This document shows positions 15,823 through 22,966 of a stretch of DNA of 64,000 bases, piece after piece. Source of the stretch: Cryptosporangium aurantiacum (GTDB lineage: Bacteria; Actinomycetota; Actinomycetes; Mycobacteriales; Cryptosporangiaceae); assembly GCF_900143005.1 (NCBI RefSeq), contig NZ_FRCS01000001.1, positions 992,001-1,056,000 of the forward strand. Direction: 5' to 3'. The notes under the pieces were generated by a model. That model was not told where the DNA came from. It did no database searches and worked only from the letters and a program-made list of their open reading frames with translations. How positions within the stretch are numbered: position 1 is the stretch's first letter; every line of letters begins with the position of its first letter. Position numbers and translations under genes: made by a program.

Positions 15823-15868
15823 TGGGTGACCCGTAGCAGGTGTGTACGCACCCGCTACGGGTCACCCA
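15823..15868. terminator. Long hairpin between convergent genes
   Basis: Arms TGGGTGACCCGTAGCAGGTG and CACCCGCTACGGGTCACCCA pair at 19 of 20 positions around a 6-nt loop. No T-run follows, as is usual in high-GC actinobacteria. It lies between the converging LacI and MBL genes and probably stops transcription from both sides. Confidence 0.65.
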
Positions 15869-17177: not shown

Positions 17178-17380
17178 GCGCAGCTTCCGTGCCGCGCGTC
17201 CGCCGCGCGTCCGCCGTGTGCCGGGCCTGCGCAGCTTCTGTGCCGCGCGTCCGCCGTGTGCCGGGCCTGCGCAGCTTCTGTGCCGCGCGTCCGCCGTGTG
17301 CCGGGCCCGCGCAGCTTCTGTGCCGCGCGTCCACCGCGTGCCGCGCCCGCGCAGCTCTCGTGCCGCGCATCACGCGCAAT
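17178..17380. repeat. 40-bp tandem repeat, about four to five units
   Basis: Units starting GCGCAGCTTCTGTGCCGCGC begin at 17229, 17269, 17309 and (diverged) 17349, each 40 bp long; an earlier, 51-bp variant begins at 17178. The inner copies at 17229 and 17269 are identical. Six-frame translations are Arg/Cys/Ala-rich and unlike proteins, so the array is taken as non-coding. Confidence 0.9.
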
Positions 17381-18094: not shown

Positions 18095-18934
18095 TCAGGT
18101 TCGGTCCCGGGACGGGGCGCCGACGCCTGTCAGGTTTGCCTCCTGGGCGGGCCGCGCGGGGATCTGGCCGGTGGTGTCGGGATGGCCTAGTCCGTAGGCG
18201 GCCGTGTCGAGGCCTCGGCCGACGAGCCGCCAGCGGGACGGCGGCAGCGACAACCGGCGGGCAGCTGCGGTGGAGCGGTGGGTCGCCGTGAGTCGCTCCA
18301 GCGCCATTGCGGCTGCGCCCCGGCTCGAGTGGACGCTGATGTGGTCGGAGACGGTGCCGTACTGGTCGACCAGACCGTCGATGGTCAGCACCCACACCGC
18401 GGACCGGTACTCGTCACGGGCGACGAGGTACCGCGCCTCCAGGTCGCCGCCGGGTGTGCAGCCCAGCCGGTCGACGGTGTCGAGGACGCTGTGCGACAGC
18501 CGTAACTGGACCAGCCGGCGGTGGGTGTGCAGCTCGGTGGCTCCGACGGTTGCGGCCAGCTCGCCGAGCGGAGTGCTGCGGCGCCAGCCTTCGACCAGGA
18601 TCGCGTCGGCGGCTGGCGTCCAATAAGTGCCGTTGCTGTGCGCGCGTCGGGACGCGCGCCAGTCGTACGTGGGGGTGCCGTTGAGCTGCTCGCGCAGCCA
18701 GTTCTCGGCGGCGGCCCCGCGCAGCGATAGGCCCGGAGGGGTCAGCAGCCGCAGCGCGCCCCGGACCGCGCCGGGCGTCCGCTGCAGTTCTTCGGCGATC
18801 TGCTCGACGCTGGAACCGGCGGCGAGCGCGGTGACCACGGTGGAGTACTCGTCGTCGGTCCACGGTTCGCCGGAGCGTCGGGCTAACACGCGGATCGGGG
18901 TCGCCTGGTCGTTGACGGTGCCTTGAGCGGACAT
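18095..18934 (-). CDS. Hypothetical protein with two Myb/SANT-like helix-turn-helix repeats
   Basis: 279 residues; ATG 18934 has GGAGGG nine bases upstream. Two similar blocks are visible: EPWTDDEYSTVVTALAAGSS with VEQIAEELQRTPGAVRGALR (about 23-62) and GTYWTPAADAILVEGWRRST with LGELAATVGATELHTHRRLV (about 101-143). Each has the Trp-Thr start and three-helix spacing of Myb/SANT or sigma-like HTH domains. The C-terminal ~110 residues have no recognised domain. A 34-bp palindrome lies 21 bp upstream, pointing to a DNA-binding, possibly self-regulating protein. No family name can be given safely. Confidence 0.65.
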   Translation of the reverse strand: MSAQGTVNDQATPIRVLARRSGEPWTDDEYSTVVTALAAGSSVEQIAEELQRTPGAVRGALRLLTPPGLSLRGAAAENWLREQLNGTPTYDWRASRRAHSNGTYWTPAADAILVEGWRRSTPLGELAATVGATELHTHRRLVQLRLSHSVLDTVDRLGCTPGGDLEARYLVARDEYRSAVWVLTIDGLVDQYGTVSDHISVHSSRGAAAMALERLTATHRSTAAARRLSLPPSRWRLVGRGLDTAAYGLGHPDTTGQIPARPAQEANLTGVGAPSRDRT

Positions 18935-18955
18935 GAGTGCCGTCCCTCCGTCGTG

Positions 18956-18989
18956 GTGACAGCGACCGCCGTACGGCGGTCACTGTCAC
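18956..18989. promoter_or_regulatory. 34-bp near-perfect palindrome upstream of the SANT-like gene
   Basis: GTGACAGCGACCGCCGT and ACGGCGGTCACTGTCAC are uninterrupted inverted arms matching at 16 of 17 positions, with no loop. It sits 22 bp before ATG 18934 (minus strand) and next to an AT-richer stretch (18990-19015) that could hold the promoter. Probably an operator. Confidence 0.65.
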
Positions 18990-19053
18990 TACGTTAGAAC
19001 AGGGGTACGACAAAAACGGGGGTGTGGATTGGCGTCGGCTGCGAGATCCGTGC

Positions 19054-19347
19054 CTACCAGTCGCGCCAGGGGTCGGTCAGCTCCAACGGGTGCAGGCCGC
19101 GTCGAGCGGTCAGCGTGCCGAGGTCGACCCCGGCGGCGGTGAGCACCGCGCCGAAGTACTCCGCGAGTTCTTCGCGCTCGCCTGTCTCGATCCGGGCGTG
19201 TTCGAGGTCGACGGCGTTCAGGGCTCGCACGGCACGCTCGACGGCGTTCCAGATCGCCCCGTCGTCGCTCGGAGACTGACGCCCGACCTCGTGCTGGTAA
19301 GCGTCCAGGACGGCGTCGACCTCTTCGATGAAGACCGGCGGCCACAA
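19054..19347 (-). CDS. Small hypothetical protein, start uncertain
   Basis: 97 residues from TTG 19347: a short acidic helical protein (FIEEVDAVLDAYQHEVGRQS, then a DLEHARIETGEREELAEYF stretch, ending LELTDPWRDW). No family recognised. The frame stays open and protein-like for 24 codons upstream (LPVEDAYAAQLWPP) to a TAG, with no ATG, GTG or further TTG and no ribosome-binding site, so the true N-terminus may be longer with an unusual start, or the gene may have lost its 5' end. It lies between the SANT-like gene and the cox operon on the same strand. Confidence 0.5.
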   Translation of the reverse strand: MWPPVFIEEVDAVLDAYQHEVGRQSPSDDGAIWNAVERAVRALNAVDLEHARIETGEREELAEYFGAVLTAAGVDLGTLTARRGLHPLELTDPWRDW

Positions 19348-19557: not shown

Positions 19558-19587
19558 TGCCTCGCGGTGTCACTCGAGCGTGGGCGC

Positions 19588-19622
19588 GGGCTGAGGCTCG
19601 GCGCGTGGCCGAGCCTCAGCCC
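19588..19622 (-). terminator. Terminator of the cox operon
   Basis: A perfect 15-bp stem (GGGCTGAGGCTCGGC with its complement) and 5-nt loop lies 6 bp beyond the coxG stop codon. There is no T-run. Its position at the end of a seven-gene operon makes termination the natural reading. Confidence 0.75.
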
Positions 19623-19628
19623 GTGCGG

Positions 19629-21422
19629 TCAGCTCTTCCTGCGGCCGGCGCGCCGACCGAGGAGGTAGGCGAGGAACGCGATGATTGCGACGAGGCCGAG
19701 TGCCTTCTTCGGCTCGCGGAGCTGGGCCTCCGCGATGGCCCTCGCGAGTGCGAGAGCATCCAGCGCGTTGTCGTCCGAGGCGGCAGGCGGCGTGAAGGCC
19801 GGGGCCGGGCGGCTCGCTGCCGGGGCGGACGAGGCGGGCCGTGCGGTCGCTGCGGCTGACGCGGTCGCTCCGGCTGGCGCGGTCGTACCGCTCGGCGTGG
19901 TGCTCGGAACTGGTCCGGTGCTCGGAGCCGGCGCGGTGCTCGGAGTAGATGCGGTGCTCGGAGCCGGCGCGGTGCTCGGAGTCGATGCGGTGCTCCGAGC
20001 CGAGGTGGTGTCCGGAGTTGGTGCGGTGCTCCGAGCCGAGGTGGTGTCCGGGGTTGGTTCGGTGCTCGGAGCCGGGGTGGTGTCGGGAGTTGGTGCGGTG
20101 CTCCGAGTCGGGGTGGTGTCGGGAGTCGGGGTGGTGCTCTGAGTCCGGGTGGTGCTCGGAGTCGGGGTGGCGCTCGTGGCTCGGGGCGTGCTGGTGGCCG
20201 CGCCGCTCGGGGCCGGACCGCCGTCCGCGGCGATCGGCTCGGCGGCGGCGGTCGCTGTGGCGTTGCCCGCGATCTCCGCGGCCGGCGTTTCCGCGGGTGC
20301 GGTCGCGGGCGCCGGGGCGCCGTCTGCGGCCACCGGTGCGCTCTTCACCGTGCTGCCGTTGGCGGCTGCGACGCCGCTGTCCGATGTGGCCTTCGCGGCC
20401 GCGGTGCGCTTGCGCGGGGTGGTCTTCTTCGCGGGTGCGGCGCTGGCGGAGCCGGTCGCGGCCTCGGTGGCGCTGCCCTCGGCGCCCGGGGATTTTGCGG
20501 TCCCGGCGCCGGTGGCCTTCGCCGTGGTTGTCTTCGAACCCGTGGTCTTCGAGCCGGTAGCTTTCGCGCTGGTGGCTTTCGCGCCGGACGACTTCGCGCT
20601 TGCGCCCTTCGGCGCGGACGCGGTGCCCGCGGCGGTGGCGCCGGAGGACGCGGCGTCCGCGGCGGTGGTGCCCGGGGCGGTGGTGCCCGCGGCGGTGGTG
20701 CCCGCGGCGGTGGTGCCCGGGGCGGTGGTGCCCGGGGCGGTGGTGCCCGCGGCGGTGGTGCCCGGGGCGGTGGTGCCCGCGGCGGTGGTGCCCGCATCCG
20801 CAGCGCCAGCGGCGGTGGTGGTGCCGGAGGTTGCGGTGTCCGCGGCGGGGGTGGCCGAGGCGGTGGTGCGGGGGGCTGCGGTGTTCGGGACGGCGTCCGA
20901 GAACGTCGGCTTCGGCACGGCGGTGCCCTCTGCGGCTGCCGCCCCCGCACCGGTGCCGACCGTGGCCGGCGCGTCTCCCGCGGCGAGCATCGCCTGCAGG
21001 TTGGTCGCGAACTGGGCCATCATCTGCTCGGTGACCGTGTTGATCACGCCCTGCCCCATCGCGGCGGCCCGGCCGGACAGGTTGACGTCGGCGGTCACGG
21101 TGCCGTGCGTGGTGGTGCCGTCGGAGGTCAGCGCCAGCTGTGCGGTCGCCTCCGCGGTGCCCTGCCCGCGGGCTTCCTTCGCCTTGCCGCGCAGCGTCGC
21201 CCGGTGCTCGTCCGGGTGCCGCTCCACCACCTCTAACTGACCCTTGTACTGCATGGTCACCGGACCGAGCTTGATCTTCATCCCGACCTGGTAGGCGTCC
21301 TCGGACAGCGTGTTGAGGACCTGTGCGCCGGGCAGGCACGCTGCGACCCGCTCGAAGTCCATCAACGTCGACCAGACCTGGTCGATCGGGGCAGTCACGT
21401 CGAACGCGCTGTCGAGCTGCAT
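19629..21422 (-). CDS. coxG: CoxG: SRPBCC-domain CO dehydrogenase membrane anchor with giant low-complexity linker
   Basis: 597 residues; ATG 21422 has a GGGAAG site and overlaps the coxE stop by one base. Residues 1-150 are the CoxG SRPBCC domain (DVTAPIDQVWSTLMDFERVA, then MQYKGQLEVVERHPDE). The end (KALGLVAIIAFLAYLLG, basic tail) is a transmembrane helix, matching known CoxG proteins, which tether CO dehydrogenase to the membrane and help pass electrons to quinone. Between them lie ~400 residues of low complexity: nine GTTAA/GTTAP repeats (211-255), a Lys/Ala/Thr histone H1-like basic part (~270-345) and Pro-Thr-Ser repeats (419-510). Usual CoxG proteins are about 200 residues, so the linker is exceptional. 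Confidence 0.88.
   Translation of the reverse strand: MQLDSAFDVTAPIDQVWSTLMDFERVAACLPGAQVLNTLSEDAYQVGMKIKLGPVTMQYKGQLEVVERHPDEHRATLRGKAKEARGQGTAEATAQLALTSDGTTTHGTVTADVNLSGRAAAMGQGVINTVTEQMMAQFATNLQAMLAAGDAPATVGTGAGAAAAEGTAVPKPTFSDAVPNTAAPRTTASATPAADTATSGTTTAAGAADAGTTAAGTTAPGTTAAGTTAPGTTAPGTTAAGTTAAGTTAPGTTAADAASSGATAAGTASAPKGASAKSSGAKATSAKATGSKTTGSKTTTAKATGAGTAKSPGAEGSATEAATGSASAAPAKKTTPRKRTAAAKATSDSGVAAANGSTVKSAPVAADGAPAPATAPAETPAAEIAGNATATAAAEPIAADGGPAPSGAATSTPRATSATPTPSTTRTQSTTPTPDTTPTRSTAPTPDTTPAPSTEPTPDTTSARSTAPTPDTTSARSTASTPSTAPAPSTASTPSTAPAPSTGPVPSTTPSGTTAPAGATASAAATARPASSAPAASRPAPAFTPPAASDDNALDALALARAIAEAQLREPKKALGLVAIIAFLAYLLGRRAGRRKS
19893..20168. repeat. Degenerate coding repeats (Pro-Thr-Ser-rich) in coxG
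   Basis: Encodes CoxG residues 419-510: imperfect blocks such as STAPTPDTTSAR and STASTPSTAPAP repeat at roughly 10-13 residues. At DNA level the pattern is GGTGCTCGGAGCCGGCGC and variants. It is in frame throughout. Confidence 0.85.
20658..20792. repeat. 15-bp coding tandem repeat, nine units, in coxG
   Basis: Nine exact 15-bp units (variants of GCCCGCGGCGGTGGT and GCCCGGGGCGGTGGT) encode GTTAA or GTTAP nine times in CoxG residues 211-255. Unit length is a multiple of three, so copy-number change keeps the frame. Confidence 0.95.
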
Positions 21423-22966
21423 CAGTCTCTTCCCTTCCGGAGGTCCCTTGCTCGGCCGCATGCGGCGACCGCGGCGGCAACCTCGTCCAGTGCGGCCAGG
21501 CTATGCCCGCTGACGAACGCATCGCAGTACGGGAGGGCAGCCGCCATCCCCCCGACCTTCGGCGCATACCCGGCAGCGGCCTTCCGCGGGTTGACCCAGA
21601 CGATCCGGTGAGCGAGCCGCCGGAGCCGGGCCATCTGGGCCGCCACCTCGGACGGTTCGTCCTGCGCCCAGCCGTCGGAGAGTACGACGACCACCGCACC
21701 CCGGGCGATCCCGCGCCGCCCGTACGAGTCGAGAAAATCCCGCAGCGACGCGGCGAGCCGAGTGCCGCCCGCCCAGTCCGGGGCGGCCGCTGCGGCGCGA
21801 CGGAGGGCGAGATCCGGGTCGCGGCGGGCGAGCGGCCGGGTCAGCCGAGTCAGCCGGGTGGCGAACACGAACGCTTCCGCGCGCGCACCGGCCACCGAGC
21901 CGTGCAGCAGCGCGAGGAACACCCTGGTGTACGGCTCCATCGACCCCGAGACGTCGCACAACAACACCAGCGGCCGTGGACGGCGCCTACGGCGCCGATG
22001 CACGAGTGCGACCGGATCCCCACCGGTCTTCCGCGCGTCTCGTACGGTGCGGCGGACGTCGATCCGCTCGCCGTTCCTCGTGGACGGCCGGGTGCGGCGG
22101 GTCCGGCGGAGCGGCGTAGCCAGCACGAGGTGCCGGACGAGCCGGCGGACCGCGTCGACCTCGTCGGCGGTGAGCTCGGCGAACGCGGTGTGCGCGAGCC
22201 GCTCGGCCGCCGAAGCCAGCGCCGGCACCGCACGGGGTTCCCCGGGGGCGCCGGTCGGGGCGGTGGAGGGCAGACCTGCCCCGGACGGTGTCAGCTGCGA
22301 AGGACGGTTGTCCGGTGGCGCGGGGCGGGTCTCGGGTGGGGTGTCCGGGAGCGTCGGTGCGGTGGGGTCGCCTCGGTGGTCGGCCAGGTCCACGGGTGGT
22401 GCCGCGTCGCCGAAGATGCCGTCGAACACCGCGTCGAACGCGGGCAACTGGGTGGCGTCGGCGACCAGCGTGGTGCGGGCGGTCCAGTAGAGACGGTCCC
22501 GGGTCCGCGGGGGCACCAGCCGCAGGGCGGAGGCGAACCGCGCGGCCCGGTCGGTGCCCGCCGGGACGCCGCCGCGGTGCAGCGCGTCGACGAACGCCAC
22601 GGCCAGCGCCGCCGGCTCCGCAGCGAGCCCGCCACGGTCAGCGTGACCGCCAAGGCCTGCGTGACCGCCGCGGTCAGCGTGACCGCCAAGGCCTGCGTGA
22701 CCGGCGGGGCCAGCGTGACCGCCGCGGTCAGCGTGACCGCCAGGGCCAGCGTGACCGGCGGGGCCAGCGTGACCGGCGGGGCCAGCGTGACCGGCGGGGT
22801 CAGCCTGACCGGCGGGGCCAGCCTGACCGGCGGGGCCAGCCTGACCGGCGGGGCCGGCGTGACCGGCGGGGCCGGGAGGATCGGCGCGGCCCGGAGTGCG
22901 GTGGTTGCCGGGCGGGTCATGGTCGCCGGGCGGGCGGGCGTCGGCGGGGCCGGTGGGATCAGGCAT
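21422..22966 (-). CDS. coxE: CoxE-like VWA-domain protein with N-terminal collagen-like repeat
   Basis: 514 residues from ATG 22966, overlapping the coxD stop by 8 nt. The C-terminal half is a VWA domain with MIDAS motif DVSGS (PLVLLCDVSGSMEPYTRVFL) and WVNPRKAAAGYAPKVGGMAA near the end, the CoxE pattern. CoxE works with the AAA+ ATPase CoxD in maturing the Mo-Cu site of CO dehydrogenase. Residues ~32-113 are a run of Gly-X-Y triplets (GPAGQAGPAGHAGPAGHAGP), broken once or twice, i.e. a collagen-like stretch not expected in this family; triple helix formation is only a possibility. Start could be internal, after the repeat. Confidence 0.85.
   Translation of the reverse strand: MPDPTGPADARPPGDHDPPGNHRTPGRADPPGPAGHAGPAGQAGPAGQAGPAGQADPAGHAGPAGHAGPAGHAGPGGHADRGGHAGPAGHAGLGGHADRGGHAGLGGHADRGGLAAEPAALAVAFVDALHRGGVPAGTDRAARFASALRLVPPRTRDRLYWTARTTLVADATQLPAFDAVFDGIFGDAAPPVDLADHRGDPTAPTLPDTPPETRPAPPDNRPSQLTPSGAGLPSTAPTGAPGEPRAVPALASAAERLAHTAFAELTADEVDAVRRLVRHLVLATPLRRTRRTRPSTRNGERIDVRRTVRDARKTGGDPVALVHRRRRRRPRPLVLLCDVSGSMEPYTRVFLALLHGSVAGARAEAFVFATRLTRLTRPLARRDPDLALRRAAAAAPDWAGGTRLAASLRDFLDSYGRRGIARGAVVVVLSDGWAQDEPSEVAAQMARLRRLAHRIVWVNPRKAAAGYAPKVGGMAAALPYCDAFVSGHSLAALDEVAAAVAACGRARDLRKGRD
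22628..22873. repeat. 18-bp coding repeat array in coxE
   Basis: GTGACCGGCGGGGCCAGC-type 18-bp units (plus a variant CGTGACCGCCGCGGTCAG) repeat about a dozen times and encode the Gly-X-Y stretch of CoxE. All visible units keep the frame. Confidence 0.9.

Follow-up and report, generated by a model that had tools for sequence, protein, structure and literature searches.

Among described systems, those closest to the locus analysed here are the RecA-NDp/PafBC damage regulon, the D5-like regulators of phage T5, the GcrA and Myb/SANT proteins and the SF1 helicases of defence systems. In the sections of the literature drawn on here, a LexA-independent DNA-damage promoter is given the consensus tTGTCRgtg-8 nt-TannnT (PMC5656591), is named RecA-NDp and is assigned to PafBC (PMC6789036; PMC11804915), which is activated by ssDNA and acts at a −26 motif (PMC11804915). 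The gene considered here lies in a 64-kb window (the whole stretch of Cryptosporangium aurantiacum DNA that was analysed, to which plain coordinates refer) and encodes a protein with two HTH units. Judged by its promoter it would be a newly found member of the known PafBC regulon, from a family that was undescribed in the searches made.

The double-HTH gene (18095..18934, minus strand) starts with ATG and encodes 279 amino acids; its ribosome-binding site GGAGGG, assigned by sequence, lies at 18944..18949 on the same strand, and GACGGAGGGACG at this site is identical in the four genus orthologues. An AlphaFold2 model of the 279-aa protein (29 sequences as input; mean pLDDT 76.4, pTM 0.53) predicts three-helix units at residues 27–63 and 107–143 and an alpha/beta part at approximately 150–260. 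Unit 1 (residues 25–64; 18743..18862, minus strand) starts with W25-T26 and has predicted helices at 27–38, 43–50 and 54–63, and unit 2 (residues 105–145; 18500..18622, minus strand) starts with W105-T106 and has predicted helices at 107–118, 123–130 and 134–143, with the pLDDT of 10-residue blocks ranging from 74 to 94 and from 75 to 96, respectively. W25 and W105 are invariant across 20 aligned family members, an alignment that excludes partial matches; unit 1 contains one tryptophan and unit 2 contains two. The two Trp-Thr-started three-helix units that the earlier note had read from the sequence are thus present both there and in the model, and the structure prediction it had proposed as a check returns both. 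The C-terminal alpha/beta domain (residues 150–260; 18155..18487, minus strand), when modelled alone, reached a mean pLDDT of 82.3; its best structural match was to the designed protein Top7 (Z 5.3), and none of the chains compared was a convincing relative, a result that does not show this predicted fold to be new.

Pfam and NCBIfam gave only weak HTH matches to the 279-aa protein, all below the cut-off, and PADLOC matched nothing; no catalytic domain was recognised by any of the three, and no paper on the family was recognised in literature searches. The proposal of an undescribed family agrees with the lack of a Pfam or NCBIfam match above cut-off. The likeness to the D5-like regulators of phage T5 lies in the HTH profile and is common to both units: PHROG 323 (‘transcriptional regulator, D5-like’) matched the whole protein at E 1.9e-8 (best stretch, residues 20–64 on profile positions 141–188 of 319), residues 1–95 with unit 1 alone at E 8e-6 (positions 136–188) and unit 2 alone weakly, at E 0.058 (positions 96–138), and it was found at E<=0.01 with 16 of the 20 family members. 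From these positions both units resemble the HTH region of D5 in reversed order, and no match to the 279-aa protein ran in order over most of the profile length. The gene differs from the D5-like regulators further in being chromosomal with a promoter of its own; a phage origin was rejected, since a tblastn search of 50,697 phage records produced nothing at E<=1 and no relative turned up when viral contigs were scanned twice with alignments.

Structurally, unit 1 has its neighbours among response-regulator and quorum-sensing HTH domains (best Z 6.7), and unit 2 superposes on a Cdc5 Myb repeat (7qtt_P, Z 5.0, 1.5 Å over 44 residues; spliceosomal Cdc5 8c6j_O, Z 4.9, 1.6 Å over 45 residues). As a Z near 5 is common among three-helix units, ‘Myb-like’ describes shape only and carries no claim of descent. 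Neighbours among viral models were D5-, GcrA- and Myb-named proteins at E 0.015 to 0.13, the GcrA-named ones at E 0.015 and weaker, and no GcrA profile match was listed. Like the GcrA and Myb/SANT proteins, the 279-aa protein has Trp-started three-helix units in tandem, with Cdc5 and c-Myb among structural neighbours, whereas its C-terminal alpha/beta domain is additional to theirs and the Pfam Myb family is absent from its matches up to E 10; PF00249 was matched by one of the 20 family members (E 4.8e-4). A Myb signature consists of three regularly spaced tryptophans, and this is absent from the 279-aa protein. The earlier label of Myb/SANT-like holds for the tandem Trp-started units and the Cdc5 superposition and fails on the Pfam match and the three-Trp signature, and the PHROG 323 match together with the structural D5 and GcrA neighbours is a likeness of the HTH units only.

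The dyad noted earlier, described below, stood, yet a more widely conserved cis element directly upstream of it had been overlooked: a promoter of the RecA-NDp/PafBC type (TTGTCG-N11-TAACGT; 18991..19013, minus strand), with TTGTCG at 19008–19013 and the −10-like TAACGT at 18991–18996. Its TTGTCG, 11-nt spacing and TAnnnT fit the published consensus, and these features are common in this genome to recA, uvrA, uvrB, ligA, radA and ung; it differs from the described regulon in that the weak ‘gtg’ positions read TAC, and in that the double-HTH family did not appear among the regulon members in those sections of the PafBC literature that were drawn on. Alignment of the four orthologue upstream regions yielded one conserved block, TTGTCGTAC-N4-GTTCTAA(A/C)GT, with a partly conserved N4, directly before the dyad.

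Genome-wide, TGTCRNAC-N8-TANNNT has 29 matches in 9.58 Mb as compared with two for the reversed control. Eleven of the 29 sites precede, at distances of 6–178 nt, ligA, uvrB, uvrA, recA, ogt, radA, ung, gyrB and three DNA-processing genes (a XerC/D-type recombinase, a DUF222/HNH gene and another HNH gene), and the double-HTH gene, 56 nt after its motif, is the twelfth. The downstream gene of each site was picked by script and 20 of the 29 products were scanned; those without an evident repair link were OpuAC, pheS, guanylate kinase, glyoxalase, DUF4132 and a peptidase/esterase, and three of the 20 gave no match. At recA the motif stands 59 nt before the recA family match and is followed after 8 nt by the nearest in-frame ATG, although the true start may lie further downstream. 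The pattern TGTCGTAC-N4-GTTCTA occurs without mismatch at only two places in the genome, here and ahead of the DUF222/HNH gene (L034, G000:C8:334905), which suggests that the latter gene is damage-controlled too. Adjacent WYL matches (C13:195522-195716 and 196814-197005), about 4.7 kb from pafA (C13:201758-203107), are presumably PafB and PafC, names that we assign from the neighbourhood near pafA. Two pafA genes are above the family cut-off in the genome (G000:C13:201758-203107 and C30:49726-51075), and between the first of them and the pafBC-like pair there is a 692-aa ORF whose start resembles that of an exported protein.

Orthologues are present in all four genomes of the genus (own included), the other three being 81–92% identical; one genus-mate has in addition a paralogue at 34% identity, and in the single sister-genus genome there is none. 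Of 397 genomes from the order, 26 match at E<=1e-3, short partial matches included, and of 394 in the class sample five match at E<=1e-10, own genome included. A first genome scan with the single protein as query found no relative, and a further scan yielded 28 (25 from Nocardia and one each from Arthrobacter, Sinomonas and Brachybacterium). Seventeen plasmid records matched, 13 of them actinobacterial (eight from Nocardia) and four from E. coli, the last being weak.

The promoter motif is carried by all four genus orthologues. TGTCR-N11-TAnnnT stands within 160 nt upstream at 23 of 26 homologue loci, including all 23 from Nocardia, against two of 2,724 other 160-nt blocks of the same loci; these counts come mostly from one genus, with related loci partly of the same species, and are thus not independent. 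The 26 are those with usable upstream sequence and a chosen start (L079 and L081, which begin at or near the gene, were omitted from the 28), and L085, L087 and L088 have no motif within 160 nt. A further set of 23 loci has the motif at 13 (four of the genus, seven of the genus Nocardia and both N-terminal helicase fusions), the remaining ten being the genus paralogue L007, then L008, L009, L013, L017 and L018 (another family, stand-alone), three further Nocardia-genus copies (L020, L030 and L031) and the nuclease fusion L022; among plasmid copies with an annotated start it was found at one of six. The motif still recurs in three groups, namely the genus Cryptosporangium, Nocardia, and the fusions plus the plasmid pXL100 copy of a further family. 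In the helicase fusions and the pXL100 copy the start codon stands 6 nt after the motif, so that no leader is left. From its promoter, the double-HTH gene is very likely induced by DNA damage.

The dyad GTGACAG...CTGTCAC (18956..18989) spans the putative transcription start; its 34 bp without a spacer, one mismatched pair of 17 (16/17 pairs) and distance of 21 bp (18935–18955) from the ATG were confirmed as noted earlier, and it extends to 42 bp (18952–18993) with 19 of 21 pairs (90%). In a match/mismatch scan it scored 15, whereas the highest score among 12 first-order Markov simulations of 64 kb was 13; yet it does not stand alone in the window, where four other dyads scored 14–17. Among the 29 motif sites, start codons (ATG/GTG) are found at offset 6 in six and at offset 7 in seven, whereas any other offset up to 59 nt after the motif has at most four; as leaderless genes would give such peaks, transcription probably starts 7–9 nt after the −10 hexamer, that is at 18982..18984 (minus strand) within the left arm of the dyad. 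A genome search for further palindrome copies, proposed earlier as a check, found the mismatch-free dyad core at this one place only, and with up to two mismatches there were 185 matches against 473 for the reversed pattern, hence no excess; the dyad as operator of a wider regulon was accordingly rejected. Outside the genus the dyad was not found, Nocardia having other hairpins and the leaderless relatives none. Because a dyad or hairpin between promoter and start codon recurs with differing sequence, a local brake fits better than a shared regulon operator, and the dyad is best read as a lineage-specific brake, either operator or RNA hairpin. That it acts as a brake at all seems somewhat more probable than that it does not.

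In one sister genome an SRPBCC-like gene, the double-HTH gene, a metallo-beta-lactamase-fold gene and a LacI-type regulator gene stand, by eye, in the same order as in the window. The reading as an operon was rejected, there being by eye no same-strand gene after the double-HTH gene in four Nocardia loci; in three of them it is faced by a transporter-like gene on the other strand, and no repair-like neighbour gene was seen by eye in any. Several further features of the window were recorded. The top-scoring dyad in the window, a near-perfect one of 46 bp with 23-bp arms and no spacer (15823–15868), sits between the LacI-type regulator gene and the metallo-beta-lactamase-fold gene, and about four 40-bp tandem repeats (17202–17361) lie inside the longest metallo-beta-lactamase-fold ORF reading or just upstream of it. 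A perfect 16-bp inverted repeat with a 5-nt loop (19587–19623), terminator-like, is found just downstream of the SRPBCC-like gene (ORF 19629–21461, minus strand), in which 18-bp repeats (19821–20198) encode a Pro/Thr/Ser-rich stretch. Between the double-HTH gene and its upstream neighbour lies a 97-aa ORF with a TTG start (19054–19347; DUF5713-like at E 3.8e-5, below the cut-off), for which there is no room at the syntenic place in genome G001.

The form of the brake can be weighed from the conservation of the dyad. It is kept in all four genus genomes, where 58 of 59 cells are standard pairs counting G-U. Two pairs are doubly changed, both before the putative transcription start and hence presumably untranscribed, which favours a DNA site; among shuffles, 363 of 500 reach two doubly changed pairs, and 11 of 500 reach each of the covariation score and the paired percentage. 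Of 11 non-Watson–Crick cells, ten are G-U (G-T) and one is C-A, a composition that points more towards RNA than towards an operator. With only eight pairs involved, neither argument is decisive. That the dyad acts as a hairpin at the 5′ end of the mRNA, controlling stability or translation, and is no operator is a possibility of appreciable weight, though short of an even one. The presumed 5′ ends of the four orthologues do fold into a 5′ hairpin, but the folding z-scores are −2.9, −1.4, −0.3 and +0.6, of which only one is notable. In Nocardia genes the 5′-UTR is longer and its hairpin is another one, and in the 11 of 23 leaders that align well four of 23 pairs are doubly changed (reached by 17 of 500 shuffles) with 15 doubly changed cells (reached by none of 500), in line with a hairpin; against it, the pair types of these leaders are below those of the shuffles (498 of 500 reach them) and the RNAalifold covariation terms are small, at −0.45 for 15 leaders (double changes in six of 19 pairs) and 0 for four leaders of another type (one of 11 pairs). 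The same 11 leaders have an invariant second hairpin around the GGGGG ribosome-binding site, 3′ of the covarying one, which also speaks for RNA. Rfam gave no match at gathering score in four loci and only sub-threshold miRNA-family matches in the window, which are taken as generic hairpin scores, and it gave no match in Nocardia L062, L070 or L076. As to layout, the 5′-UTRs of L062–L068, L071–L073 and L084 run from an invariant GGTAGGACACAGTCGGAG through the covarying long hairpin to the GGGGG hairpin, and in them CACAG could pair with CUGUG beside the start codon. Within the genus, autorepression is the simplest form of the brake and is plausible on these data, with the mRNA hairpin as its main rival; that the dyad is bound by the double-HTH protein itself is conceivable at a little under even chances.

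Three other explanations bear on the gene and its promoter. The SOS box consensus is TCGAAC-N4-GTTCGA, with which TCGTACCCCTGTTCTA (18995..19010; TCGTAC-N4-GTTCTA) within the promoter agrees at ten of 12 positions. LexA control through this weak candidate box, alone or together with PafBC, would accord with the four orthologues, where N4 varies and GTTCTA is kept, with 11/12 boxes near the motif sites of recA and uvrA in the same genome and with the dual control of some genes that the consulted sections of one report describe (PMC8223512); it is nevertheless unlikely, as nine sites of equal quality occur in the 64-kb window, the promoter site included, and the Nocardia promoters lack the GTTC half though TGTCR and TAnnnT are kept. 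The protein might instead be a DNA-processing accessory in repair or defence, its module guiding to DNA structures or sites, with the dyad regulated by something else. In Arthrobacter L085 a related HTH module is joined to a UPF1-like SF1 helicase (AAA_11/AAA_12; PADLOC MkoC E 2.4e-59), in L023 to a UvrD-like helicase (PADLOC GajB E 5e-12) and in L022 to Sigma70_r4 together with a TnsA-like nuclease, and by eye L024 is a GajB-like helicase fusion similar to L023; we take MkoC and GajB to denote the Mokosh and Gabija defence systems. The SF1 helicases of such systems thus carry relatives of the module, whereas the 279-aa protein has no helicase part. The promoter class that the gene has in common with repair genes, and the absence of further mismatch-free dyad cores that could form a regulon, would suit such an accessory, but no catalytic domain is recognised in the protein, most of the members seen stand alone, and an HTH within a fusion may serve targeting and so be uninformative on the role of the lone protein; this role is possible for the protein without being the expected one. 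Ordinary coincidence, by which a generic HTH protein would have acquired both its dyad and its promoter-like match incidentally, was already disfavoured and is very improbable: HTH shapes are common and the structural Z values are about 5–7, yet the motif counts (29 against two in the genome; 23/26 against 2/2724 at the homologues) and the retention of the dyad in four of four genomes stand against coincidence.

Overall, the gene probably encodes a damage-induced stand-alone DNA-binding protein with a PafBC-type promoter and the dyad as local brake. Upon DNA damage, PafBC would be activated and bring RNA polymerase to TTGTCG-N11-TAACGT, as at recA, and the induced protein would act on DNA via its two HTH units, while the dyad over the transcription start would keep the gene quiet or shut it off again. 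In the simplest form the dyad would be an operator for the gene's own product, giving negative feedback; in the alternative form its transcribed part would fold as a 5′-terminal hairpin of the mRNA. A broader joint reading is more speculative and rather improbable, in which the double-HTH family belongs to the PafBC response as an inbuilt feedback arm, induced by damage together with recA and bearing a brake over its own start (the dyad in the genus Cryptosporangium, the covarying leader hairpin in Nocardia), and in which the module has been passed to repair and phage-defence helicases and nucleases. The promoter evidence extends the RecA-NDp/PafBC class to this lineage. The described role of PafBC is to activate its regulon; if it does induce a DNA-binding protein with a brake of its own, actinobacteria, Nocardia among them, would possess a regulator of a second tier or a repair factor not recognised before.
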